Below are positions 8,081 to 55,945 of a DNA stretch of 64,000 nt, in pieces. Within the stretch, counting starts at the first letter, position 1, and every line of letters starts with the position of its first letter. The notes beneath the pieces were generated by a model. It worked only from the letters and a program-made list of their open reading frames with translations, was not told the DNA's origin and ran no database searches. The stretch is from NCBI GenBank assembly GCA_024278955.1, contig JAJRSE010000071.1, forward strand, positions 1-64,000, given 5' to 3'. A program made the position numbers and the translations under genes. Source of the stretch: Planctomycetota bacterium. Its GTDB lineage: Bacteria; Planctomycetota; Planctomycetia; Pirellulales; Lacipirellulaceae.

Positions 8081-9832
8081 TTAGTTGAGGTTATTGATAG
8101 GCAGAGTTGTCGGTTTGGCAGAGAGAGGCTGTTCGAGCAGGGGAAAGTCTTGGGAGGCTTCCGTTGGTGGCAATGAGATAAGTTCATGGCTGCTTGATTC
8201 GATTGGCATGAAGAAATGTCGTCGTGCTAGTCGAACAGGTCGAGGGTTGGTGATGGCGTCGTAAAGACGCGGTTCGTAGATGCGTGGAGTACGGTTTAAG
8301 GGCCCTTGGGTGAGTGACTCTTGGGTTCGCATCAATTCCACCGACTCGCGGCATGCTACGATAGGCGTGTAGGGCTGGATATGTGGGACCAGCGTGACGA
8401 TGATTTCGGTTCTCGATTTAATAGCTCGTCGCTTCTGGAAGAGCACCCCTAGGTAAGGGAGGTCGCCGAGCCAGGGAACTTTGCTTTGGATGATGCTGTC
8501 TTCTTCTTGAATGAGTCCTCCGATAACCATGCCTTGGCCATCGTTGAGAAAGATGTCGGTTTCGACTTCGGTAGTTTCTTCTGAGGGGAGCTCGGTAACG
8601 GGATCGATTTGTCCGGTCGAGACTTCGGGTTTGATATGCATCAGGATGCGACCATCGCGTGTGATGCGTGGCTCGACCGTGAGCACGACGCCGACGTCGA
8701 GAAATTCGACGGTTTCTAGCGAGCTGGTTTGGGTGGTGGTCGTGACTCGAAAGCCAAGCTGTTCGCCGACTTGAATACGTGCCTCTTGGCCGCTGACGAC
8801 TAGTAGACGCGGCGAAGCGAGGGTTTTGGCGTCGGTTGTGTTTTTGAGCAGCTCGACGAGGTTAGTGAGTGCCGCGCCGGTGGTTTCTAGGAAAAAAGCA
8901 GAAGTTGCAGCGGGATTGGCTAAGCCAATAGTGTTGAGCTTGATCTCGTTTCCTCGAAAGCTGGTGAGCGATTCAAAATTCACACCGTTGCGACAGTCGT
9001 CTCTCAAATCGACTTGAAGGATATGGACTTCGATGAGCACCTGACGCGGTGGCTGATCGATTTGTAGGACGTAGTCCTGGACTCGAAGTAACTGAGTTGG
9101 GTAGTCGAAAACAACGAGCGACTCGCGGCTCCGCCGATTGTCGGTCGGGCTGCTTTCCATAATCCACGATTTCCCGCCCGGGGAGAGGAACCCTTTGACC
9201 GCTTGGTCGGCATCGACGGCCGAGGCAAAGTCGAGTTCAAAGATTTGTGTCTTCCGGCCTCCTGCATTTGGCGACATGAAGTTGGCTGTTTCTAAACTAA
9301 CAATAAAAATAATGCCGTTGTTGCTCGACCACGTGTAACCCGAGGCAGCTAACAGCGAATCGAGGGCCGTTTGCCAGGGCACTTTGGTCAGCGAGGCAGT
9401 GACTCCGATGTCGGCAGGGGCGGAGAAAACAATGTTCAGGCCTTGTGCCTCTGCAATCATTGTGATTGTATGACGAAGCGAACCATCGCGAACGGTCAAC
9501 GAAATGAGGCCGTCTTTGCCTTGGAAGATAATTTCGGCTTTGGGGTCGGGTTTCGCAAATGGAATGAGGTGTTGGGTCGTAGGGCTTGCCGCTGGAGGGG
9601 CAGGCAACGACTCGGGAATTTGACCTGCGACCGAGGCGCCGAGTGCCTTGATGGTCTCCCAGGAATCGTTAGCCATGTTTTGGGCAACTCGTGGCTCGCT
9701 GCGGAAGCGAGACGTTCGCGAGTCTTGGGCGACGGCAACTGGCGCGCAGGCAAAAAGCAGCAGCAAAACGCTTAGACGAATCGCCCAGCGTCGCAGGCTC
9801 GCACCTTCGTGTTGCCGCTTGCAGCAGGTCAT
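8081..9832 (-). CDS. pilQ: type IV pilus/type II secretion secretin (PilQ-like)
   Basis: Secretin/TonB short domain and C-terminal secretin (VGEQLGFRVTTTTQ...VGVVLTVEPRITRDGRILMHIKPEVS, MVIGGLIQEEDSIIQSKVPWLGDLPYLGVLFQKR). Confidence 0.92.
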   Translation of the reverse strand: MTCCKRQHEGASLRRWAIRLSVLLLLFACAPVAVAQDSRTSRFRSEPRVAQNMANDSWETIKALGASVAGQIPESLPAPPAASPTTQHLIPFAKPDPKAEIIFQGKDGLISLTVRDGSLRHTITMIAEAQGLNIVFSAPADIGVTASLTKVPWQTALDSLLAASGYTWSSNNGIIFIVSLETANFMSPNAGGRKTQIFELDFASAVDADQAVKGFLSPGGKSWIMESSPTDNRRSRESLVVFDYPTQLLRVQDYVLQIDQPPRQVLIEVHILQVDLRDDCRNGVNFESLTSFRGNEIKLNTIGLANPAATSAFFLETTGAALTNLVELLKNTTDAKTLASPRLLVVSGQEARIQVGEQLGFRVTTTTQTSSLETVEFLDVGVVLTVEPRITRDGRILMHIKPEVSTGQIDPVTELPSEETTEVETDIFLNDGQGMVIGGLIQEEDSIIQSKVPWLGDLPYLGVLFQKRRAIKSRTEIIVTLVPHIQPYTPIVACRESVELMRTQESLTQGPLNRTPRIYEPRLYDAITNPRPVRLARRHFFMPIESSSHELISLPPTEASQDFPLLEQPLSAKPTTLPINNLN

Positions 9833-9872
9833 TTTTTGTCGTTAGTCCCAGACAGGGTCGAAGAGAAGAGGG

Positions 9873-10430
9873 TTAGCGTTGTTCGAGCTCAGAAAGCACG
9901 ACGCCTTGTTTGGTGATGTCGGTAATTTCAAATCCTTCAAATTGGTCGCCAATGCGAACTTGCTGTTCGCCGATGGTTGCCCGTTTTTCTCCCGAGGAGA
10001 TGACGACTATTTTTGTTCCTTCTTGCATCAGTTGCTTGAGCACGGCTGCCTTTTTTGCTTCACGTTGCGATTTATCAGAAAAGGTGTCTTCGCTGCCGTC
10101 GACTAAAGATGCTTCTGCGGTGATGAGCCAATCAGGCTTTGCCAACGGGTCGAATGCGACAATGCTTTCGACCGTCATCTCGGTCCATATACGAGGTGCA
10201 GCTTTCGTTTTTTCTAGCGTTCCTTCGGTTTGCTTTTTTGTTTGAGCAAGTTTTGGTCTCTTGGATTGCTCGTTGCTTTGGGTGGTTTGTCTGCTTGCAA
10301 TTTCGGAGGGAGCCTGGCTTGTCGGTAGCTGGCCGACGATGACGACAAGCAGCACCACGGCAAGCACACCAATCAACGCTAGCTTAGCCGGCGTGGCACC
10401 TATTTTTTTCATCCTATTGGGTTCGTTCAT
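9873..10430 (-). CDS. pilus assembly-associated protein (PilP-like position)
   Basis: 185 aa with an N-terminal TM; lies between the pilO-like gene and the secretin; assignment is positional. Confidence 0.55.
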   Translation of the reverse strand: MNEPNRMKKIGATPAKLALIGVLAVVLLVVIVGQLPTSQAPSEIASRQTTQSNEQSKRPKLAQTKKQTEGTLEKTKAAPRIWTEMTVESIVAFDPLAKPDWLITAEASLVDGSEDTFSDKSQREAKKAAVLKQLMQEGTKIVVISSGEKRATIGEQQVRIGDQFEGFEITDITKQGVVLSELEQR

Positions 10431-11017
10431 AGGACTTCCCCTGTCTTATTTGTATCGTTTGATTCGATGCCATAAACCAATACAAATGTCACTTCGAGAG
10501 GGTAGCTTCCAGATTCTTGGTTGGTTGCTAGCTCTAAGTTGATGATCTTAGTAATCCTGGCAAGCTGGTGAACTTTGTCGAGAAATCCGCAGATGCTAGC
10601 GAAGCTTCCTCGTCCACTGACAGTGACCTCAACTCGCGAGTGAGTTGGAGTTGATTCCGGGGTATCCCAGGCGGCTTCTTGAAGCCGAAACTTTGCGGCA
10701 TGGGCTGCCAATCGGACGGAAGACTCAAACTGTTCCTTTTCCAGATCCTGTGGCAGACGCTTCCGCATCGAGGCTGTCTCTTGCTCCAACTGGTCAAGCT
10801 CATCACGTAACGAGTGGTGCTTTAGTCGGATACTCTTTCCATTAGAAAGCAGTTGCTCAAGCTGCTTGGTTCGCTCGCAATGTGCCTCGCATTGATCGGC
10901 CATCTGCGCATAACTCAGTTGGTAGAACGCAGTCAGCATCGCGACGACCGCAAGCAACCCGGCCGCATGGAACGACCAGCCGATGGCTTTTCGATTGTGA
11001 TGATGGGAGTTTTTCAT
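10427..11017 (-). CDS. pilO: PilO-like pilus assembly protein
   Basis: Single N-terminal TM followed by coiled coil; syntenic position after the pilN-like gene. Confidence 0.65.
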   Translation of the reverse strand: MKNSHHHNRKAIGWSFHAAGLLAVVAMLTAFYQLSYAQMADQCEAHCERTKQLEQLLSNGKSIRLKHHSLRDELDQLEQETASMRKRLPQDLEKEQFESSVRLAAHAAKFRLQEAAWDTPESTPTHSRVEVTVSGRGSFASICGFLDKVHQLARITKIINLELATNQESGSYPLEVTFVLVYGIESNDTNKTGEVL

Positions 11018-11035
11018 ACTTGGCTCGTGATTCGA

Positions 11036-11617
11036 TCAGAACGAACTTTGCAGTAGAAATTTTTCGATCTGTTGTTGATTGATAAATTCGGGTTTTGAAG
11101 TTCGCAGTTTGACGTCAGCGAACGGCAGGGCCGTTTTCAAGTTTTTTCTCAGGCGGATTACCGATTTCTTGCTGATGCCTCGTCCTGCGACCGAGATCGC
11201 CCTGCTCGTTTCGCTTTCTTGTTCCGAAAGAAGCGACGCCGATTGCTGAAACTCAAGCTTTTCAAGGTAAACCTGCCCTTGGCTTTCGGCGACCGTTTTC
11301 CCTACGATGCCGAGCAAGGTGACGACCGGGGTATCGATTTTTGCTAGCGCCAACGAAATTTTCTCCTGGGCTTGTACCAGCTCAATTCGCTTTTTGAATT
11401 CTTTACTGGCTTTGTTCATCTGTCGGAAAGGCTCGTAGCGAGCTTCAAGAGCGGCGACTTCCTCGCCCTGCTGATGGACAGGCAGCCAAATAGCAAACCA
11501 AGTGGGGATGAATAAAAACCCTAGCACCGTCAAAACGACAGTCCACTGGCGGAGTCGTTTACGAGCACACGTTTGAACACGCGAGCGATTCGACATCAAG
11601 TTGAGATGGCGTTTCAT
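11036..11617 (-). CDS. pilN: PilN-like pilus assembly protein
   Basis: MKRHLNLMSNRSRV...TM...coiled coil; ATGA overlap with the pilM stop. Confidence 0.75.
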   Translation of the reverse strand: MKRHLNLMSNRSRVQTCARKRLRQWTVVLTVLGFLFIPTWFAIWLPVHQQGEEVAALEARYEPFRQMNKASKEFKKRIELVQAQEKISLALAKIDTPVVTLLGIVGKTVAESQGQVYLEKLEFQQSASLLSEQESETSRAISVAGRGISKKSVIRLRKNLKTALPFADVKLRTSKPEFINQQQIEKFLLQSSF

Positions 11618-12690
11618 GGCTTCTCCCATGCGAGTGCCGAGAGGGCGATAGCGGGACCGAATAAGCAGCTTGGCATTTCCGGCGTATCGAGGAGGGCCGG
11701 TTGCTCTTCGCCGAGTTGCCACGTTTCGACTTTGGTTTCTAAGTCCTGGGCAAGGTGCCCCGCGAGGCCGCGAATTGTGGCTCCGCCTCCGAAGAGATAG
11801 AGACTCTCGGGGAGAATGGACCGTCGTTGAAACTGAAGGTGCGAAAAGGTCCGCCGGATCTCGTCTGCCAGGCGAGCCAGGGGTTCAGCGATAATTTCTT
11901 CGACTAATTTTCCCGCCGGCGAGGAGGTCGAACTGGCAGATCCCCCGAGCCCGTACTCTTGCAGCAGACGTTGCGATTCTTCTCTGGTGACGCCGAGTTC
12001 TTCAACCAATCTGTCGATCAGGCGGTGCAAGCCGCAATTTTTGAGATTGCGAACATAAACGGGTCGACCTTCGACAACCACACACAAGGTGGCTTTTGCA
12101 AAACCCCAGTCGAGGGCAGCGGTTGGCACAGTCGAGTCCGCTGGTTCGACGAGAGCAACTGCTCGTGCGAGCGACAGGGGCAAACCGTCGATCGTTTGGC
12201 ACGACCATCCCGACTCGGTCAGGTCGTCGAACAACTGGTCGGACCAGCGCGTGGCAACGGTCAGGATATTTAGTTTCTTAGCGATGCCATTTTCTTCTTC
12301 TGGCTCGGCGTCCCAAACGTCAAATTGCAATCCTTCGGCGGAACGCTGAGTTGCCATCTCGATAGCACCACGTACTTGGTGGCTCTCGATTTCTCCGCCA
12401 GAGGGGCGGTCAAGCGTATGCACACCGCAAATCGCCATCGGAAACGTCGCTGCGGCTTGCTTGCCGCGGAAGCTGGGATGCAGAGAAACGGCAGCACACA
12501 TTTCGTCGGCAGAAGAAAGCGGATTGAGCTCGGCAAGTTCGGCAATTGGCCACGCCACGCGACGTGGCACGATCGCTAGACCGGTCACCCGAAGGCCTTT
12601 CTTGCTGCGAGTTAGCTGGGCAAGTTTTACGGTGGAAGTGCCAACGTCGACGCCGACCCATCCTGTTTTTTGAATACCAATCATGGGCAA
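11614..12690 (-). CDS. pilM: type IV pilus assembly protein PilM
   Basis: Actin-like fold motifs (WVGVDVGTSTVKLAQL, LYLFGGGATIRGLAGHLAQDL). Confidence 0.88.
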   Translation of the reverse strand: MPMIGIQKTGWVGVDVGTSTVKLAQLTRSKKGLRVTGLAIVPRRVAWPIAELAELNPLSSADEMCAAVSLHPSFRGKQAAATFPMAICGVHTLDRPSGGEIESHQVRGAIEMATQRSAEGLQFDVWDAEPEEENGIAKKLNILTVATRWSDQLFDDLTESGWSCQTIDGLPLSLARAVALVEPADSTVPTAALDWGFAKATLCVVVEGRPVYVRNLKNCGLHRLIDRLVEELGVTREESQRLLQEYGLGGSASSTSSPAGKLVEEIIAEPLARLADEIRRTFSHLQFQRRSILPESLYLFGGGATIRGLAGHLAQDLETKVETWQLGEEQPALLDTPEMPSCLFGPAIALSALAWEKP

Positions 12691-12776
12691 TAAAAACTTT
12701 TGTGTACGTTCTAGTAATCGATTTCTTTACTAACTTTGCTAAAATATCTGGATGCTGAAATTGGCTTTAAGGATCG

Positions 12777-12841
12777 TAACCCGACGCGTAAGCGAGGGAG
12801 AAGCGGGGCTCCGCAGCATCCCTCGCTTACGCGTCGGGTTA
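12777..12841. repeat. palindromic repeat (perfect ~23 bp arms)
   Basis: taacccgacgcgtaagcgaggga gaagcggggctccgcagca tccctcgcttacgcgtcgggtta. Confidence 0.92.
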
Positions 12842-12884
12842 TGATTTGTTTTATTCCCTAACCTCCAACCTCCAACCCCTTCCC

Positions 12885-14072
12885 TTAATGCCTGTTTGCG
12901 AGTGTCGAAAGATCGAAGACCGGCAGCATGACCGCCAGCACAACTCCTGCGATGATGATTCCCATACCGACCGTAATGATCGGTTCGAGCATGCCGATCA
13001 ACTGTCGCATGCCTGCTTCGGCTTCTTCTTCGTAGTACTCGCCTAAGAGCTGAGTCACCTCTCCCATTTTGCCTGTTGTCTCGGCGGTAATAATCATCTC
13101 TCGAGCCGATTGAGGAATCACCTCGGTATCGGGCAGAGCGCTTTCTAAGTTTTGACCATTGACGACCGCATCTTCGAGCTTGGCGAGTAGCTCTTTGTAG
13201 AGCGTGTTTTCGATCGCTTGGCGTGTGAGTCGCAAAGTTTCGAGCAATGGGACACCACTTTGAAGCATCAAACCCATCAGTCGACACATGCGCCCTACCA
13301 ACTGCGTGCGGCAGACGTCGCGAATCACTGGGGCATGGATCCAGAGCGTGTCGAGCGCGCGACGACCTTGCTCGGTCTTTCGCCACTCGCTAAATCCGAC
13401 CAAGCTTCCGACCACTAGCGGGGTCCACAACCACCAACGGGCCCACATTTCATCGGCAACGGCGATTAGAAGTCGGGTTATCGCTGGCAGCGGGACGTCG
13501 TACTGTTCAAAAATCGTTGCGAAACGAGGCAGCACAAAAAGCACCAAGGCAACCAACACGGCGCTGGATACCAACATCAGCAGCACAGGATAGGTCATCA
13601 ATGCACGCATCGTTCGCCGAGTACGTAGCAAGCTTCGCTGCATATCGGCAAGCTGTGCAAGGACTTCCGACATCTTGCCGGTAGCTTCTCCTGCCGCAAC
13701 GGTTGCGATATAGCTCGGATCGAAAACACGAGGGTGCTGTCTTAGGGCGTCTGAAAGCGTGTTGCCGGCAAGTACGGCTTCGTGTACTTCGTAGAGCACC
13801 TGAGCCAAAGCGGGCCGCTTGCATTGCGACGCCAAGCTTCCGAGAGCCGACGAAACGTCGACGCCCGAGCGAGTCATGATTGCCAGTTGCGAAGTAATTT
13901 CTGCCACATCTTGTTGACGAACGGCACTGCCACGGCCTTTTTGCGAGTTTGCCTGGGTGCTTTGCGAATTCCAGACCGCTCCTTCTCCGCCAAAGTGAGA
14001 TCCCGCTTCTTGAGACGCACGAGGGGCGCTGGTTGGCGCGAGCATCGATTTTTCAAAACTGGTGGCACTCAT
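12885..14072 (-). CDS. pilC: type II secretion F/type IV pilus inner membrane protein PilC
   Basis: GspF domains (ITSQLAIMTRSGVDVSSALGSLASQ..., GVPLLETLRLTRQAIEN, MIITAETTGKMGEV, EPIITVGMGIIIAGVVLAVMLPVFDLS). Confidence 0.93.
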   Translation of the reverse strand: MSATSFEKSMLAPTSAPRASQEAGSHFGGEGAVWNSQSTQANSQKGRGSAVRQQDVAEITSQLAIMTRSGVDVSSALGSLASQCKRPALAQVLYEVHEAVLAGNTLSDALRQHPRVFDPSYIATVAAGEATGKMSEVLAQLADMQRSLLRTRRTMRALMTYPVLLMLVSSAVLVALVLFVLPRFATIFEQYDVPLPAITRLLIAVADEMWARWWLWTPLVVGSLVGFSEWRKTEQGRRALDTLWIHAPVIRDVCRTQLVGRMCRLMGLMLQSGVPLLETLRLTRQAIENTLYKELLAKLEDAVVNGQNLESALPDTEVIPQSAREMIITAETTGKMGEVTQLLGEYYEEEAEAGMRQLIGMLEPIITVGMGIIIAGVVLAVMLPVFDLSTLANRH

Positions 14073-14126
14073 TTTTCTTATCGCGTAAGGTGTTTTTTTG
14101 TTGAAGGAAGTGGCAATAGCTGGTGT

Positions 14127-15923
14127 TTATTCGACAAACGCAATGCGTCCGATCTCTTCAAGGCTTGTCTCTTCACGCTCGGCTAGCTGCAAACCGCAAT
14201 CAAGCAGTGTGGCATAATTTTGGTCGCTAAACCATTTCCGTACCGCTTCTAAGCTTGATTGATCGGAGATCAGCTGTCGCAATTCGGCGGTCGCGGGAAG
14301 TACTTCGTAGATGCCGGTCCGTCCTCGAAATCCCGTATCAAAACATTCACGACAACCTTCCCCTTTTGCAAAGCTGCGGCGCATGTCACCTTGGTAATGA
14401 AGCATTTTCAGATACTCGGCCGAAGGGTAATACGAAGTTTGGCAATGGGGACAAATCGTCCGAACAAGCCGTTGTGCGACCACCCCCGCCAGCGCTGCTG
14501 CGAGCTTATAGCTTTCGATGCCCATGTCCATCATTCGCGTGATGGCGCTTGCGCTGTCGTTGGTATGTAGTGTGCTAAGCACGAGGTGACCTGTGAGAGC
14601 CGCTTGAACGGCAACCTGGGCCGTTTCGGCATCGCGAATTTCGCCGACCATAATCACATCGGGGTCTTGTCGCAAAATCGAACGTAAAGCAGTTGCAAAA
14701 TTTACGCCGCGGTTCGAGTCGACTTGCACTTGGTTGATCAGTTCCACTTGGTACTCGACCGGATCTTCGACGGTAACGATATTGCGATGGACCGATTTGA
14801 TAAGTTCGAGGGCCGAATAAAGAGTCGTAGTTTTTCCGCTACCCGTTGGGCCGGTGACAAGTACCAACCCATAGGGCTTGTTGAGCAAGTCTTTGATATG
14901 GCTTAGGGTGACATGCGGGATACCAAGCTGATCGAGATCGAAAGTCAATCGTTGCTTGTCGAGAACGCGGATGACGATCTTCTCGCCCAAGACGGTTGGC
15001 AAGGTAGAAATACGCAAATCCACTTCTTTACCATCGGCGATCACCTGGCAACGACCATCTTGTGGGACCCGTTGCTCGGCAATGTCGAGCTTCGCCATGA
15101 CTTTGATACGAGACACAATCGCAGGGAAAATATCTCGACGTGGCCGAAGCATTTCGACCAATTGTCCGTCGATTCGGAACCGGACGGTACCAAACTTGCG
15201 GCTTGGTTCAATATGGATATCGCTCGCCGACTTACGTATCGCCTGGAGGATAAGGTAGTTCACCAGATTGACCACTGGGCTACCGTCGACCAAGTCGTGG
15301 ACCGAAGCCACGTCCATGTCGGTTTCGTCAAGCTGCAATTCAACCGCCGCATCGTCCAGGTCGGCAGTGACGGCATCGACGCGAAAATCTTCTTCGTACG
15401 CTCTTTTTTGCATCCGCTCGATCGCCGCCTGGAAGGCGAACACAGGGCGAACGTTCAGACCTGTCAGACTCTCGATTTGGTCGAGCATGTCGAGATCTTG
15501 CGGATCGGAGGTCGCTACAACAAGCTCGTCGCGGATGCGGAACAGCGAGAGGAGATTTAATTTTTCGGCCAGCGGACGTGGAATCAGCCGCACAGCAAGC
15601 GGATCGAGTAAGCCCTCTCGAAGGCGTACCCCTGGCACGCCGAGTTGTGTTTCGATAAATGGCAGGAGTTGTTCTTCGCTGGCAAACCCAAGTTCGAGCA
15701 ACGACTCGCCCAGCTTCTGCCCTTTCTCGGCATGGTGGTTGAGCGCGACTTCCAGGTCGTCTTCTCCAATGAGATTGGCGCTAAGCAAGCGTTGCCCAAG
15801 TGGCCCACGGAGAGCCGCTTCGTTCTCAACGTCTTCCCTGTCCTGGGCAAGCGGGAGATTTTGAGACTCGGTTTCTTCGGGCAGCGTGCTATTTTCGATT
15901 GATATTTCTGCGACAGGAGTCAT
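14127..15923 (-). CDS. pilB: type IV pilus extension ATPase PilB/GspE
   Basis: Walker A GPTGSGKTTT, VEDPVE, DPDVIMVGEIRD, STLHTND, CPHC...CREC zinc motif. Confidence 0.95.
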   Translation of the reverse strand: MTPVAEISIENSTLPEETESQNLPLAQDREDVENEAALRGPLGQRLLSANLIGEDDLEVALNHHAEKGQKLGESLLELGFASEEQLLPFIETQLGVPGVRLREGLLDPLAVRLIPRPLAEKLNLLSLFRIRDELVVATSDPQDLDMLDQIESLTGLNVRPVFAFQAAIERMQKRAYEEDFRVDAVTADLDDAAVELQLDETDMDVASVHDLVDGSPVVNLVNYLILQAIRKSASDIHIEPSRKFGTVRFRIDGQLVEMLRPRRDIFPAIVSRIKVMAKLDIAEQRVPQDGRCQVIADGKEVDLRISTLPTVLGEKIVIRVLDKQRLTFDLDQLGIPHVTLSHIKDLLNKPYGLVLVTGPTGSGKTTTLYSALELIKSVHRNIVTVEDPVEYQVELINQVQVDSNRGVNFATALRSILRQDPDVIMVGEIRDAETAQVAVQAALTGHLVLSTLHTNDSASAITRMMDMGIESYKLAAALAGVVAQRLVRTICPHCQTSYYPSAEYLKMLHYQGDMRRSFAKGEGCRECFDTGFRGRTGIYEVLPATAELRQLISDQSSLEAVRKWFSDQNYATLLDCGLQLAEREETSLEEIGRIAFVE

Positions 15924-47826: not shown

Positions 47827-48531
47827 TCAGTGGCTACCGTCGCCAACTTGCCACCTATCGATCAACCAAACCGAGGGACTATGAAGTCCTTTTGTCTTAG
47901 AAAGAACCAACAGAAACGAGGAGACCTCAGCTTCGGCGTCCAGAACATCGTAAACAAAGACCGCCCTCGGCTGGCTCAGTTTGGAGTCAACTTGCGTCTC
48001 ACGGAGAACTCGCGATTTATTCCCACTCTCATGCATCTTACGCAATGCCAGAACGAGCGGGTCTTGAAGAAGCTGCGCGTTTTCTATTGCTTCCGAAAAA
48101 ATTGGGACCGCCCCGATGTTACTTCCAGAAGATTGGAGGCGAATAACCGCAGCACGTGTCATCAAACCCATCGCCTCTTCCGATTCGCCCCGAGCAACCT
48201 TCGCCATCCAAAGCTCAGCTGTCGCTTTTGCCTCTCGACGCAAAAGCACAGTACGTACCTCAACCCGGGCAACTGCCGAGACGCCAAAAATAATTGCAAA
48301 CGCCAACCCACCATAAGCCAGCCGAGTTCCCAGCAGGCCTCCTTCCGATCGTTTGATCCTTGCCAAAGCCCACAACGCAACCGCAACCGCAAACAGCGGC
48401 ACAACCAACAGAAGGGGAGCCGCAAAAGCCACCACCGAAAGCAAGCCAAGCACCAAAGCCACCACAGCCGAAGTGCTCAACGACTGATACTGCCCAAGCT
48501 CATCTGCGCTGTAATTACTATCGGATTCCAT
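47827..48531 (-). CDS. DUF4190-like membrane protein
   Basis: N-terminal STSAVVALVLGLLSVVAFAAPLLLVVPLFAVAVALWALARIKRSEGGLLGTRLAYGGL. Confidence 0.7.
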   Translation of the reverse strand: MESDSNYSADELGQYQSLSTSAVVALVLGLLSVVAFAAPLLLVVPLFAVAVALWALARIKRSEGGLLGTRLAYGGLAFAIIFGVSAVARVEVRTVLLRREAKATAELWMAKVARGESEEAMGLMTRAAVIRLQSSGSNIGAVPIFSEAIENAQLLQDPLVLALRKMHESGNKSRVLRETQVDSKLSQPRAVFVYDVLDAEAEVSSFLLVLSKTKGLHSPSVWLIDRWQVGDGSH

Positions 48532-48602: not shown

Positions 48603-49127
48603 TCACTTCCCCAGGAAAGGATGGTCTGATTTCTCGCTCTCAGCAAAGTTCTTCACCACACCACGAAAAGGGGCCCGAGCATATTTGAACGTCGATTGCT
48701 GCCATTCCGAGGCATCCTTGAAAGACCACTCACCCGAATTGATCGGCACCCGCTCCAGGGTATATGCCGTAAAGCTAGTCAACATCACCGCCACGACAAG
48801 CCCCACGATAGGACCCGCTATTTTATCCAGCAAAGGAAAGAATCTTACTCTTACCTCCGAAGAATTCCTCGCAGCCAAGTGCATTACGGTTACCGTCGCG
48901 GCGAAGACGACCCAAACTCCGGCGAAGACAAAGTACCAAGCCGACTCAGGCGGCTTGCCCGACTTGTCTAGCAAGAAATTTCCCAACGGTACGCCCCCGA
49001 AAACACTAACCAATCCTGCCAGAATGATATTCAACAAAGCGACCATATTATTCCAAAGCCCTTCGTTAACCGTCATAGCGACCGCGGCGAAGAACAAGAA
49101 TCCTAGCATGACCGTGAGATATAGCAT
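48603..49127 (-). CDS. CvpA-like membrane protein
   Basis: Four TM segments with spacing resembling CvpA; weak family assignment. Confidence 0.55.
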   Translation of the reverse strand: MLYLTVMLGFLFFAAVAMTVNEGLWNNMVALLNIILAGLVSVFGGVPLGNFLLDKSGKPPESAWYFVFAGVWVVFAATVTVMHLAARNSSEVRVRFFPLLDKIAGPIVGLVVAVMLTSFTAYTLERVPINSGEWSFKDASEWQQSTFKYARAPFRGVVKNFAESEKSDHPFLGK

Positions 49128-49212: not shown

Positions 49213-51123
49213 CTACTGCTTGAGTACTCTCATCAATTCAGGGACCGAGGTGATTCCCTTAGCAACCAGCAAAATGCCTTCTTCCTGAAGCGACCGCTGC
49301 CGAGAAGCTCGGGCGGCTTTTTTCAGAAGGGAGAGCTTAGGTTGTTTGACAAGGATCTCTCGCATCTGATCGGTAACCGTAAGCAACTCGAAAACACCTG
49401 TCCGCCCCTTGTATCCAAGGCCTTGGCAAGTGGTACACGGTTTATTGATTTCCTCGCCCTTGGGGGGACGATATAATTGTTCGATTTTCCCGCTAGGAAT
49501 TCCAAGCTTTCGCAGAACCTCTCCCGGAGGAGTGTACGCTACTTTGCAATCGGGGCAGAGCAAACGTATCAACCGCTGATAAAGGACCGCCTTGGCAGTC
49601 GAGGCCAACTCTTTTGCTGGAATTTTCATTTGCAGCAACCTCAGCAGTGCTTCTGCCGACTCGCGAGCGCGTACGTTGGTTACCACCAAGTGCTCGTCTC
49701 TTACCTCGCCAAGCAGAATCGAAGCAGAATCGACATTGACGAAGTCGCGGCAGACGTAAACATTGGGATAGGTGCGGATAAGTCTTGGGAGAATCGTTGC
49801 AGGCGACTCTCCCGCAGCGCCATCAAAGGTTGTGACTTGCAGGTTTTGAATTTCTTCTTCCGGATGGGCAACGTCCTCAATCGCAGAAAAATCTCGCATC
49901 AAACGATCCGTCTCGCCGACCGAGATATTGGTAATCGTTGTCAATCCGTCGCCCGGCAAAGTCGCCAAAATGACCAACCCTTGGTCGGCAGCCATTTGGT
50001 CGGCCCACTGTTTTTGAAGTCCCTCGCGCATACCAAGGTCATCGTAGCTGCGAAGCTTTTTCTTTTCTCCCAGGAGCGTAAGAATCACTCGTTCGCCTGT
50101 GGTGACCCCTTGCGAAACCAAAAGGCATGTAAAAGACTTGCCTTGGTACTTGGCTCCAAATTCTCCCGACTGCTTCTTCTTGCGTTCTTTCGCATTAAGA
50201 TTTGCAAGTGTTTTCAGCACGGCAAGCATGACGTCGTTCGGCTCACGCTCGCGCGCTTCGCCGCTGTGCCACACTCCATCGATTTCGTGCCGCACGTTGA
50301 CCGCTTGCTTCGTAAAATCGAGCAACATCCGATCGCTTCGTTTCCCGTCCATCTCGACGATCAAATCTTTCGCGAGCAAATAGCCAGGGGAATGCCTCGC
50401 GGAAAGCAAGTTGGCGTTATTGGAATTTTGGTCATCTGCACCCATTGCCAGCAGATCGACCGGAGCGCCCTTCTCGTACTCGGCCTTTCGCTCCGCATCG
50501 ACTTTGATCCCCACCTTGCCGCCCAAACTTGCAAAAACATATCGCCACCAAGGCCCCGTAAGCACGGTCTCGTGAGGCTCGACATTCTTGTTATGAACAA
50601 GAACGTAGGGAATCCATGTCGCGAGGAAAACAACAAACAAGATCGGCAAACGAATGAGAGTCGCCACTGGCAAGAAGAAAAACAACAGGCAAAGCAGTGC
50701 AAACGGAAAAAACAAAATCGGATTCCACTTTTGCCAGCCGAGCCGGTAAGTTTGTGTATCGCGATTGACCCAGTCGACTGCTCGAACCCAAATCAGCAAG
50801 ACCAAGAACGCAGCCAACAGTTTCAACAAAAGCGAAATTTTGAATGGAAAAGACTTAACACGCTTGGCAAAAACATTGACCGATTGGTCACCGGCAGCCT
50901 GTTCTGGATTCGCTGGAGAGGCACTCTCCGTATTTTCTTGCTGCGGATCTCCATTCTCCCTGCGAGTCCCGTCGCCAGCTATTTCGCCTTGAGCTTCGGA
51001 GACCGCCCCTAACTCAGTAAGACTTACCTGAGCCCAGCAACCGCTTGGTTCAAGACATAACGCCGCAAACGCCAGCACTATTGCCGTGAAAATCGAAACT
51101 TGTAAACCCGTCATATGCCGCAT
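49213..51123 (-). CDS. membrane-anchored GspE/PilB-like pseudo-ATPase
   Basis: Signal peptide and TM segments, then a GspE-like C-terminus (LYQRLIRLLCPDCKVAYTPP...CTTCQGLGYKGRTGVFELL); P-loop region is ATLPGDGLTTI with no Walker A Lys. Confidence 0.8.
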   Translation of the reverse strand: MRHMTGLQVSIFTAIVLAFAALCLEPSGCWAQVSLTELGAVSEAQGEIAGDGTRRENGDPQQENTESASPANPEQAAGDQSVNVFAKRVKSFPFKISLLLKLLAAFLVLLIWVRAVDWVNRDTQTYRLGWQKWNPILFFPFALLCLLFFFLPVATLIRLPILFVVFLATWIPYVLVHNKNVEPHETVLTGPWWRYVFASLGGKVGIKVDAERKAEYEKGAPVDLLAMGADDQNSNNANLLSARHSPGYLLAKDLIVEMDGKRSDRMLLDFTKQAVNVRHEIDGVWHSGEAREREPNDVMLAVLKTLANLNAKERKKKQSGEFGAKYQGKSFTCLLVSQGVTTGERVILTLLGEKKKLRSYDDLGMREGLQKQWADQMAADQGLVILATLPGDGLTTITNISVGETDRLMRDFSAIEDVAHPEEEIQNLQVTTFDGAAGESPATILPRLIRTYPNVYVCRDFVNVDSASILLGEVRDEHLVVTNVRARESAEALLRLLQMKIPAKELASTAKAVLYQRLIRLLCPDCKVAYTPPGEVLRKLGIPSGKIEQLYRPPKGEEINKPCTTCQGLGYKGRTGVFELLTVTDQMREILVKQPKLSLLKKAARASRQRSLQEEGILLVAKGITSVPELMRVLKQ

Positions 51124-52277
51124 CAGATAATACCGCCTTGCGAAACATCGATTCCTTTGAGTGACATCTTCAGTGCCTCGCGGTTCGGAGCTACTTCCAT
51201 CGCGGTCTCGCGATCGATCATCTCTTCGTCGACAAGTTTTTTCAAACTCTGCGTAAAATCTTGCATGCCATCTTCAGCACCAACACGAATGGCATCGCCC
51301 AGTTTATGGTCTTCTTCTTCCAAAATTAGTTTCCGAACCGTTGGAGTAAACAACATGATCTCGCAGACTGGAACACGACCAACACCTGGTTTAATCGACT
51401 TGAGCAACTTTTGCGCAATAATGCCCTTCATGTTCATCGCCATAGCGCTGCGAAGGGCACCGTGCATTTCCTGGGGGAACAAGTCGAGAATACGTCCAAC
51501 CGTCGAGGCGGCGGTACTGGCATGGATGGTTCCAAAAACCAAATGGCCCGTCTCGGCAGCATGGATAGCCGTCATGAAAGTTTCACGATCACGCATTTCG
51601 CCCACAAGCATCACGTCGGGATCTTCACGCACTGCGTGTTTCATACCGATCTCAAAATCAACCACATCAAGGCCAATTTCACGTTGGTTAATGAGACACT
51701 TCTGCTCGGTGAACACAAACTCGATCGGATCCTCAAGCGTGAGAATATGCTTTCGGTATCTTGCATTGATCCAATTGAGCATCGACGCAATGGTTGTACT
51801 TTTACCCGAGCCTGTCACCCCGGCTAGTAAGACCATCCCCTGGTCGTACGTGCAAAGCCGCTCGATCGAAGGCGGGAGGTTCAAACCCTCGAAGTCGGGA
51901 ATCCAACTACTAACGCGTCGGGCTACCAAACCGATATGTCCCAGCTGCTGCAACAGGTTCACGCGGAAACGCCAGTTGGTGCCATCGACCTCGCACATAT
52001 GTGCAAAGTCTGCCCCGCCATCTTTGTCGAAAATTTTACGGCTCCGCTCGTTCATCAGCGGAAAGCAAAGGCGTACCATTTCTTCGTCGTCGATCGGATC
52101 GCGATCCATCGGTCTCAACGAGCCATCAACACGAAGCATCGGCGGTCGTCCGACCTTGAGATGCAGATCGCTCGCCTCGTGCTTCACGCATGCGCGAAAC
52201 ATTTTGTTAATCTCAAGTTCTTGATGTCGGGCGACAAAACTGTCGTAGTCCGATTCATTGATCGAAGATTTGGACAT
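51123..52277 (-). CDS. pilT: type IV pilus retraction ATPase PilT
   Basis: GVTGSGKSTT, LEDPIE, REDPDVMLVGEMRD, GTIHASTAAST. Confidence 0.93.
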   Translation of the reverse strand: MSKSSINESDYDSFVARHQELEINKMFRACVKHEASDLHLKVGRPPMLRVDGSLRPMDRDPIDDEEMVRLCFPLMNERSRKIFDKDGGADFAHMCEVDGTNWRFRVNLLQQLGHIGLVARRVSSWIPDFEGLNLPPSIERLCTYDQGMVLLAGVTGSGKSTTIASMLNWINARYRKHILTLEDPIEFVFTEQKCLINQREIGLDVVDFEIGMKHAVREDPDVMLVGEMRDRETFMTAIHAAETGHLVFGTIHASTAASTVGRILDLFPQEMHGALRSAMAMNMKGIIAQKLLKSIKPGVGRVPVCEIMLFTPTVRKLILEEEDHKLGDAIRVGAEDGMQDFTQSLKKLVDEEMIDRETAMEVAPNREALKMSLKGIDVSQGGII

Positions 52278-52304: not shown

Positions 52305-53078
52305 TTAAGCTACCATTCGCACGTGAACGCCATAGTCGGCCATGATTTGCTTAGTTTCTTGAATTGTATACTCGCCGAAGTGAAAAATACTGGCCGCAAG
52401 CGCCGCGTCGGCTTTGCCTTTGGTCACCGCCTCGGCAAGATGTTTGGGGCACCCTGCCCCGCCGCTCGCTACGACCGGAATCGAGACGGCTTCGCTGACG
52501 GCTGCGGTGATCTCCAGATCGTAGCCATTTTTTGTTCCATCGGCGTCCATGCAGGTAAGTACGATCTCGCCTGCTCCCATTTGTTCGACCTGCCGAGCCC
52601 AAGCAACCGCTTCAAGCCCTGTGGCAATGCGACCCCCGTTGATAAAAACTTCCCATACCTCGCAGCCATCTCGCTGGACGCGTTTTGGATCGATGTTCAC
52701 GACAATGCACTGGCTGCCAAATCTTTTTGCCGCTGCGCTGACGAACTCAGGATCGGTTACCGCCGAAGAGTTGATCGAAACTTTGTCGCAACCTGCTTTT
52801 AACAATTGCCGCACATCATCGACGGTACGAATTCCGCCCCCCACTGTGAGCGGCATGAACACTTGCTCGGCGGTGCGCCGCACCATATCGGCCATGATGT
52901 CTCGGCCTTCGTGGCTGGCACAAATATCAAGGAAGACCAACTCGTCGGCTCCTTCTCGCTCGTAGCGAGCGGCCACCTCGACCGGGTCGCCGGCATCGCG
53001 AAGATTCACAAAGTTGGTACCCTTCACCACGCGACCATGGTCAACATCGAGACAGGGAATGACACGTTTGGCAAGCAT
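52305..53078 (-). CDS. hisF: imidazole glycerol phosphate synthase subunit HisF
   Basis: [55 protein letters not shown]. Confidence 0.97.
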
Positions 53079-55375: not shown

Positions 55376-55945
55376 TTACTCATCCTGACACGATTGCCAT
55401 AGCCGTTCAAGTTGGTCGAGTGTTTCTGGCGATTCTTTGAGTTCGCACAAGGGAGCAAGCTCCTGGCGAATAAGGTTCATATTGAGTGAAGCCAACTGTC
55501 GATTGAAAATTCCTTCTACATCAAACCAATCCTGTGGGCGTCCGGCAAAGGCTTTAAAGACAACAAGGTCTTCTGCGGACACGGTCAGCAACTCGACACC
55601 TTCATGAAAACGAAACAACGAACTGCGCATGATAGCACTTCGCTCAAAATTAAAGGCACCGAGCGATATATCGACACCAAATCCTTTCTTCGATGTTAAC
55701 AATACAACACGATTCAACAAAGCGAACTCTTTCGCATCTGCTCGTCTCGGAGTAAATTTTTCTAGCAAGGCATCAACAAAGGAAGCTTCGTTACCGAAAT
55801 CCGTGAACAAACAAAGGTCTGCGTCGTTGGTCATTCGGGCGCGTCCCCAACGATTGACAGCGATGCCTCCGATGAACGCGAAACTCCATTCACGCTGCTC
55901 CAAGAAGTCTTGTACCTCACGAGCAGCCTGCAGCACTTCGATCAT
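55376..55945 (-). CDS. nucleotidyltransferase, AbiEii/DUF6036-like
   Basis: FIGGIAVNRWGRARMTNDADLCLF NTase motif; overlaps the upstream small gene by ATGA. Confidence 0.7.
   Translation of the reverse strand: MIEVLQAAREVQDFLEQREWSFAFIGGIAVNRWGRARMTNDADLCLFTDFGNEASFVDALLEKFTPRRADAKEFALLNRVVLLTSKKGFGVDISLGAFNFERSAIMRSSLFRFHEGVELLTVSAEDLVVFKAFAGRPQDWFDVEGIFNRQLASLNMNLIRQELAPLCELKESPETLDQLERLWQSCQDE

Follow-up and report, generated by a model that had tools for sequence, protein, structure and literature searches.

A predicted membrane-anchored PilB/GspE-type pseudo-ATPase encoded beside a second PilT paralogue in Planctomycetota

Descriptions of type IV filament motors present the family as one of active hexameric ATPases. 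For Geobacter PilB, seven ATPase positions have been defined (PMC5424180): the Walker A Lys, the ASP-box Glu, the catalytic Glu, two arginine fingers (R271 and R286 in GmPilB) and two His of the HIS region. These are the positions scored below. PilU, for which a hexamer beneath PilT has been proposed, acts in a PilT-dependent manner, and in V. cholerae an AIRNLIRE motif was suggested to matter for the PilT-PilU coupling (PMC6762196). The locus described here resembles that pair in having a second motor-family gene directly 3' of pilT in the operon, the product of which plausibly acts through PilT. PilU, however, belongs to the PilT type of ATPase, has its Walker motifs intact and lacks a membrane anchor, whereas the protein studied here is of the PilB/GspE type, anchored and degenerate. 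In the recruitment of GspE by GspL or of PilB by PilM/PilC a cytoplasmic motor is likewise held at the inner membrane, but in the present protein anchor and ATPase-like core form one polypeptide. In the open-access literature searched, we found no description of such a pair with a second PilT (PilT2) or of a conserved PilB/GspE pseudo-ATPase. A clade-wide dead and anchored family member with its own PilT would show a non-enzymatic use of this fold, and the family would offer a natural separation of the structural from the catalytic roles of the ring.

Domain structure and membrane anchor

The window, that is, the complete stretch of 64,000 nt that was analysed, holds the features listed in Table 1. 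T2SSE (PF00437) is the sole Pfam domain of the 636 aa protein (E=1.6e-41, residues 252–632), which stays below the cut-offs of the NCBIfam equivalogs for GspE (174.9 versus 617 bits) and PilB (140.8 versus 675.65 bits). In an AF2 model built from 24 orthologues the core has a pLDDT of about 90, and Foldseek matches it to PilF, PilB and GspE structures at ~1e-32. The core is of the PilB/GspE type. It shares with PilB, GspE and PilF the N2 domain and RecA-like C-terminal core, the IDG motif, the four Cys and an inter-chain Arg, but lacks the Walker A Lys, the catalytic Glu, the HIS box and the arginine fingers, and membrane helices replace the N-terminal domain of the GspE/MshEN type.

Hydropathy indicates a signal-like helix and TM segments at about residues 98–116 and 136–154, with a weaker third one. 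The AF2 model concurs in the signal-like N-terminal helix and in helices within residues 96–180, the linker being of low confidence. Three Trp of the membrane-helix region (W112, W118, W133) are invariant across 24 alignment rows. The core presumably lies in the cytoplasm. A first-pass annotation of this DNA had proposed a membrane-anchored, PilB/GspE-derived protein, and domain match, structural matches, hydropathy and modelled helices all bear this out. Short pseudo forms without a TM segment exist in families f15 and f9, thus the anchor was lost and is dispensable there.

Table 1. Coordinates of the pseudo-ATPase, its parts and other features of the window
Feature	Positions	Strand	Remarks
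Membrane-anchored PilB/GspE-derived pseudo-ATPase (predicted)	49213..51123	(-)	636 aa, ATG start
N-terminal signal peptide or TM1	51031..51123	(-)	residues 1-31; hydropathy, AF2 helix 2-29
Three predicted membrane helices	50584..50838	(-)	residues 96-180; AF2 helices 96-126, 130-150, 155-180; hydropathy
N2 domain with conserved IDG	50044..50403	(-)	residues 241-360
Positions of the two arginine fingers	50077..50124	(-)	residues 334, 349; here Leu, Thr
Degenerate Walker A TLPGDGLTTI	49933..49962	(-)	residues 388-397; Lys to Leu
ASP-box region, E416 retained	49867..49884	(-)	residues 414-419
Degenerate Walker B and catalytic Glu segment YPNVYVCRDFVN	49735..49770	(-)	residues 452-463
Degenerate HIS box TNVRARES	49657..49680	(-)	residues 482-489
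Intact tetracysteine zinc module CPDC...CTTC	49426..49557	(-)	residues 523-566
PilT2, second PilT paralogue	51123..52277	(-)	intact ATPase motifs; TIGR01420 399.8 versus cut-off 319.1 bits
hisF	52305..53078	(-)	syntenic neighbour upstream of pilT2
CvpA-like (Colicin_V) membrane protein	48603..49127	(-)	Pfam 5.2e-11; frequent downstream neighbour in the order
DUF4190-like membrane protein	47827..48531	(-)	Pfam 6.5e-05, below gathering score; frequent downstream neighbour in the order
Canonical pilus/secretion cluster	8081-15923	(-)	secretin, PilO, PilM, PilC, intact PilB with MshEN domain
AbiEii-like nucleotidyltransferase	55376-55945	(-)	weak Pfam match, 1.9e-05; same gene run

Catalytic and structural residues

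At each of the altered motifs the protein aligns with the PilB of the window, and no gap is needed: GPTGSGKTTT is opposed by TLPGDGLTTI in Walker A, DPDVIMVGEIRD by YPNVYVCRDFVN in the Walker B segment and STLHTNDS by TNVRARES in the HIS box. These are exactly the changes that had been noted before, together with the tetracysteine motif, which is indeed intact. In the window protein Asp stands for the catalytic Glu and Arg485 for the HIS-box His; the GH-type His (H478) is kept. Both arginine fingers, which act in trans and had escaped the first reading, are lost as well (Leu334, Thr349). Their columns were found by counting along a GspE alignment from EpsE R210 and R225, which we take to be the arginine fingers, and the placement is supported by Arg at both columns in 22 out of 22 canonical rows.

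These canonical relatives (six from the own genome, nine membrane-anchored ones from f21 and seven membrane-anchored ones from elsewhere) keep seven out of seven ATPase residues in all 22 cases, whereas the 57 sequences from the order Pirellulales keep 0 to 4, and 48 of them two or fewer; the description as catalytically degenerate thus holds for the order. The Walker A Lys is absent from 56 of the 57. Its sole keeper is the second tandem copy in genome G111, the site of which is otherwise degenerate. At the catalytic position 12 sequences have Glu and most have Asp, so that an acid is usually retained; both arginine fingers are present in a single sequence, and the His at positions 478 and 485 in five and two, respectively. 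The ASP-box Glu E416 is found in 51. Other residues are nearly or fully invariant: C526, C563, C566, D282 and R520 occur in 57 out of 57, C523 in 56, and the IDG motif and K304 are also retained. R520 aligns with the inter-chain Arg R455 of GmPilB.

Two findings could have spoken against this picture, another Lys in the P-loop or orthologues with a canonical one. No Lys occurs at residues 388–396 in 39 out of 44 members of the order's TM-type set, and where Lys does occur it is sporadic and at no conserved position; a compensating P-loop Lys is rejected. Apart from the Lys in the degenerate site of G111, the orthologues within the order are likewise without a canonical P-loop. Judged from these alignments, the cis- and trans-acting catalytic residues are gone and structural and inter-chain features are kept. 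Such a core would be expected to be devoid of ATPase activity.

The pilT2 locus and possible roles of the pair

PilT2 is 37% identical to the canonical PilT of its own genome; the latter is encoded on a different contig (C36), within a pilB-pilT-pilC cluster. The ATPase motifs of PilT2 are also intact in all sampled loci covering them, and its AIRNLIRE motif has diverged to TVRKLILEEED. The ATG of the pseudo-ATPase gene and the pilT2 stop codon overlap by 1 nt (TGATG, 51125–51121), as first described, and an overlap of -1 or -4 nt is found in most loci. In 130 out of 139 genomes of the order for which both best hits could be compared, pilT2 immediately precedes the pseudo gene on the same strand; in the remaining nine, mainly f8 and f9, the two are on different contigs, which draft contig breaks may partly explain. 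In most f21 genomes both genes are apart. The coupling to a pilT gene claimed in the first-pass annotation therefore extends across the order. Its partner is adjacent and of the PilT family, but it is a dedicated second paralogue and not the PilT of the canonical cluster.

The two membrane proteins reported downstream on the same strand, CvpA-like and DUF4190-like, have Pfam matches, and the array hisF-pilT2-pseudo gene-cvpA-DUF4190 recurs in the order, as does hisF-pilT2-(pseudo)GspE in other classes. However, hisF, a gene of unrelated function, shows a linkage to pilT2 about as tight as that of the pseudo gene; thus adjacency alone proves little. Pairwise distances of the pseudo-ATPase and PilT2 correlate beyond those of HisF (partial r 0.57, permutation p 0.0005, 29 loci with HisF as the one control gene). 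The divergence of the two proteins is correlated, which is modest evidence for functional pairing. Pili and appendages of Planctomycetota are poorly understood, and the conserved locus provides a practical entry point.

Several loci deviate from the common arrangement. In G046 (L136) the pseudo-ATPase follows hisF directly and PilT2 was not found in this genome. Tandem pseudo copies follow pilT2 in G111 (L094:2753-6101; one long and one short, the short one with GDGKST) and in G154 (L095:2814-7133; two long ones). An in-frame stop splits pilT2 in G202 (L131:813-1946), beside an intact anchored GspE, and in several pilT2 genes of f7 an in-frame TGA or TAA was flagged in the aligned stretch, which may be an early C-terminal stop. 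G028 (99% complete) has PilT2 and the pseudo-ATPase and gave no match to a canonical PilT.

We tentatively favour, as the likeliest reading but at slightly less than even odds, that the membrane-tethered pseudo-ATPase is a scaffold or regulator for the PilT2 motor. Its own N-terminal helices would fix the protein in the inner membrane, and the ATPase-like core would face the cytoplasm. Normal ATP binding and hydrolysis as well as the supply of an arginine finger to the neighbour would be lost, with fold, zinc module and inter-subunit Arg kept. The dead core might then stack on PilT2 or form a ring with it, and the tethered ring or part-ring would dock, place or gate PilT2 at a membrane target. 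This may be likened to PilU working through PilT, with an anchor in place of the engine. The contrast in catalytic residues to the canonical relatives, the invariant R520 and the frequent adjacency of PilT2 speak for this scaffold; the splitting of the pair in some lineages, G046 without PilT2 and the anchorless forms of f15 and f9 speak against it. We infer that the protein may form oligomers, bind PilT2 and function at type IV pili, and the role of dock, regulator or adaptor for PilT/PilB hexamers that had been suggested from the outset may be seen in the same way. A mixed ring in which the pseudo-ATPase lends arginine fingers to PilT2 is improbable, since both fingers are lost.

Alternatively, the pseudo-ATPase could regulate the canonical pilus or secretion motors (PilB, PilT1, PilC) instead of PilT2, acting either as a docking ring or as a brake of the dominant-negative kind. 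Descent from the PilB/GspE side and not from PilT, as well as the retained inter-chain Arg, would fit, and at least two PilT-family proteins are present in 67 out of 70 sampled genomes of the order. Furthermore, a signalling role in Myxococcus has been suggested for PilB that carries a Walker A mutation and is nucleotide-free (review PMC11656802). Yet the pseudo gene is conserved beside PilT2, outside the pilB-pilT-pilC cluster, and G028 has both proteins with no canonical PilT match; therefore we regard this as unlikely. Since nearly all genomes of the order carry a canonical PilT, co-occurrence with pilus loss cannot separate the readings. Rather unlikely, too, is a separate two-part machine that is no part of a type IV pilus. 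In it, an active cytoplasmic PilT2 ring would act on a membrane-embedded ring of dead ATPase replacing PilC/GspL, with the CvpA-like and DUF4190-like proteins as envelope parts, and its ancestor would be an anchored, still active GspE encoded at this locus.

The degenerate site might also have been repurposed for another ligand, a nucleotide or second messenger, which would make the protein a membrane sensor. The Gly-rich loop with an invariant G393, the frequent E416, an acid at position 460 in most sequences and the conserved, order-specific R407 and E491 are compatible with a remaining pocket function, but the P-loop has no conserved replacement Lys, the arginine fingers are lost and the motif positions differ among families, so that we hold a sensor to be improbable. 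The same degree of doubt applies to the view that PilT2 and the pseudo-ATPase are neighbours by mere genome inertia, the latter having an independent role in the envelope. hisF has been retained as a neighbour in the same way, the two genes have come apart in several lineages and G046 appears to do without PilT2; against this stand the overlapping start and stop codons in most loci, the partial correlation beyond HisF and the fact that nearly every genome of the order has both.

Conservation and descent of the family

Orthologues with open frames were found in 39 out of the 40 nearest genomes searched; among these 40, only G002 (79% complete) yielded just the canonical paralogue. All 148 genomes sampled from the order have a match to the family profile, of which the weakest rows may be canonical ATPases, and the motif losses are common to some 20 families. 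For the whole protein, dN/dS among close relatives is about 0.1 or lower, which is an indication only as dS is saturated; values peak in the linker and reach their minimum in the zinc/C-terminal part. These comparisons establish the predicted pseudo-ATPase as a fixed family under purifying selection, a pseudoenzyme of PilB/GspE by its residues. A decaying pseudogene, a one-off mutation, chance or an assembly error, for which nothing speaks except the motif losses themselves, is rejected as hardly credible by the open frames of the relatives, the low dN/dS and the spread of the losses over so many families and assemblies, single-contig genomes included.

GspE proteins that are membrane-anchored and have intact motifs occur in f21, f43, f29 and f7 (L113, L116, L120, L131, L132, L045). 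They have a similar TM N-terminus and a homologous core but, unlike the pseudo-ATPase, retain all seven residues. In three genomes (G180, G202, G165; L120, L131, L132) such an intact form occupies the hisF-pilT2 site, and others, in f21 and f7, are encoded elsewhere. Given the three at this site, the dead form is probably the derived one. In the other-class families f72, f53, f69, f57 and f65 the protein after pilT2 is also without the Lys and most other residues. In a tree built without the motif columns, one branch separates every pseudo form from the canonical ones (support 94, and 98 in a thinned set). An alternative topology uniting the order's pseudo forms with the active forms of f21 is not rejected (p-AU 0.247). 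The tree would be compatible with a single loss of the catalytic residues, bearing in mind that long branches may attract each other. Rooting with the own non-anchored PilB/GspE sequences suggests that the active anchored form is ancestral. The intact anchored relatives within the phylum, three of them at the hisF-pilT2 site, make a transition from motor to scaffold testable. Two f21 loci (L114, L115) come from genomes that hold a separate short pseudo-GspE (GPPNSGLTTT) in addition to the active anchored form.
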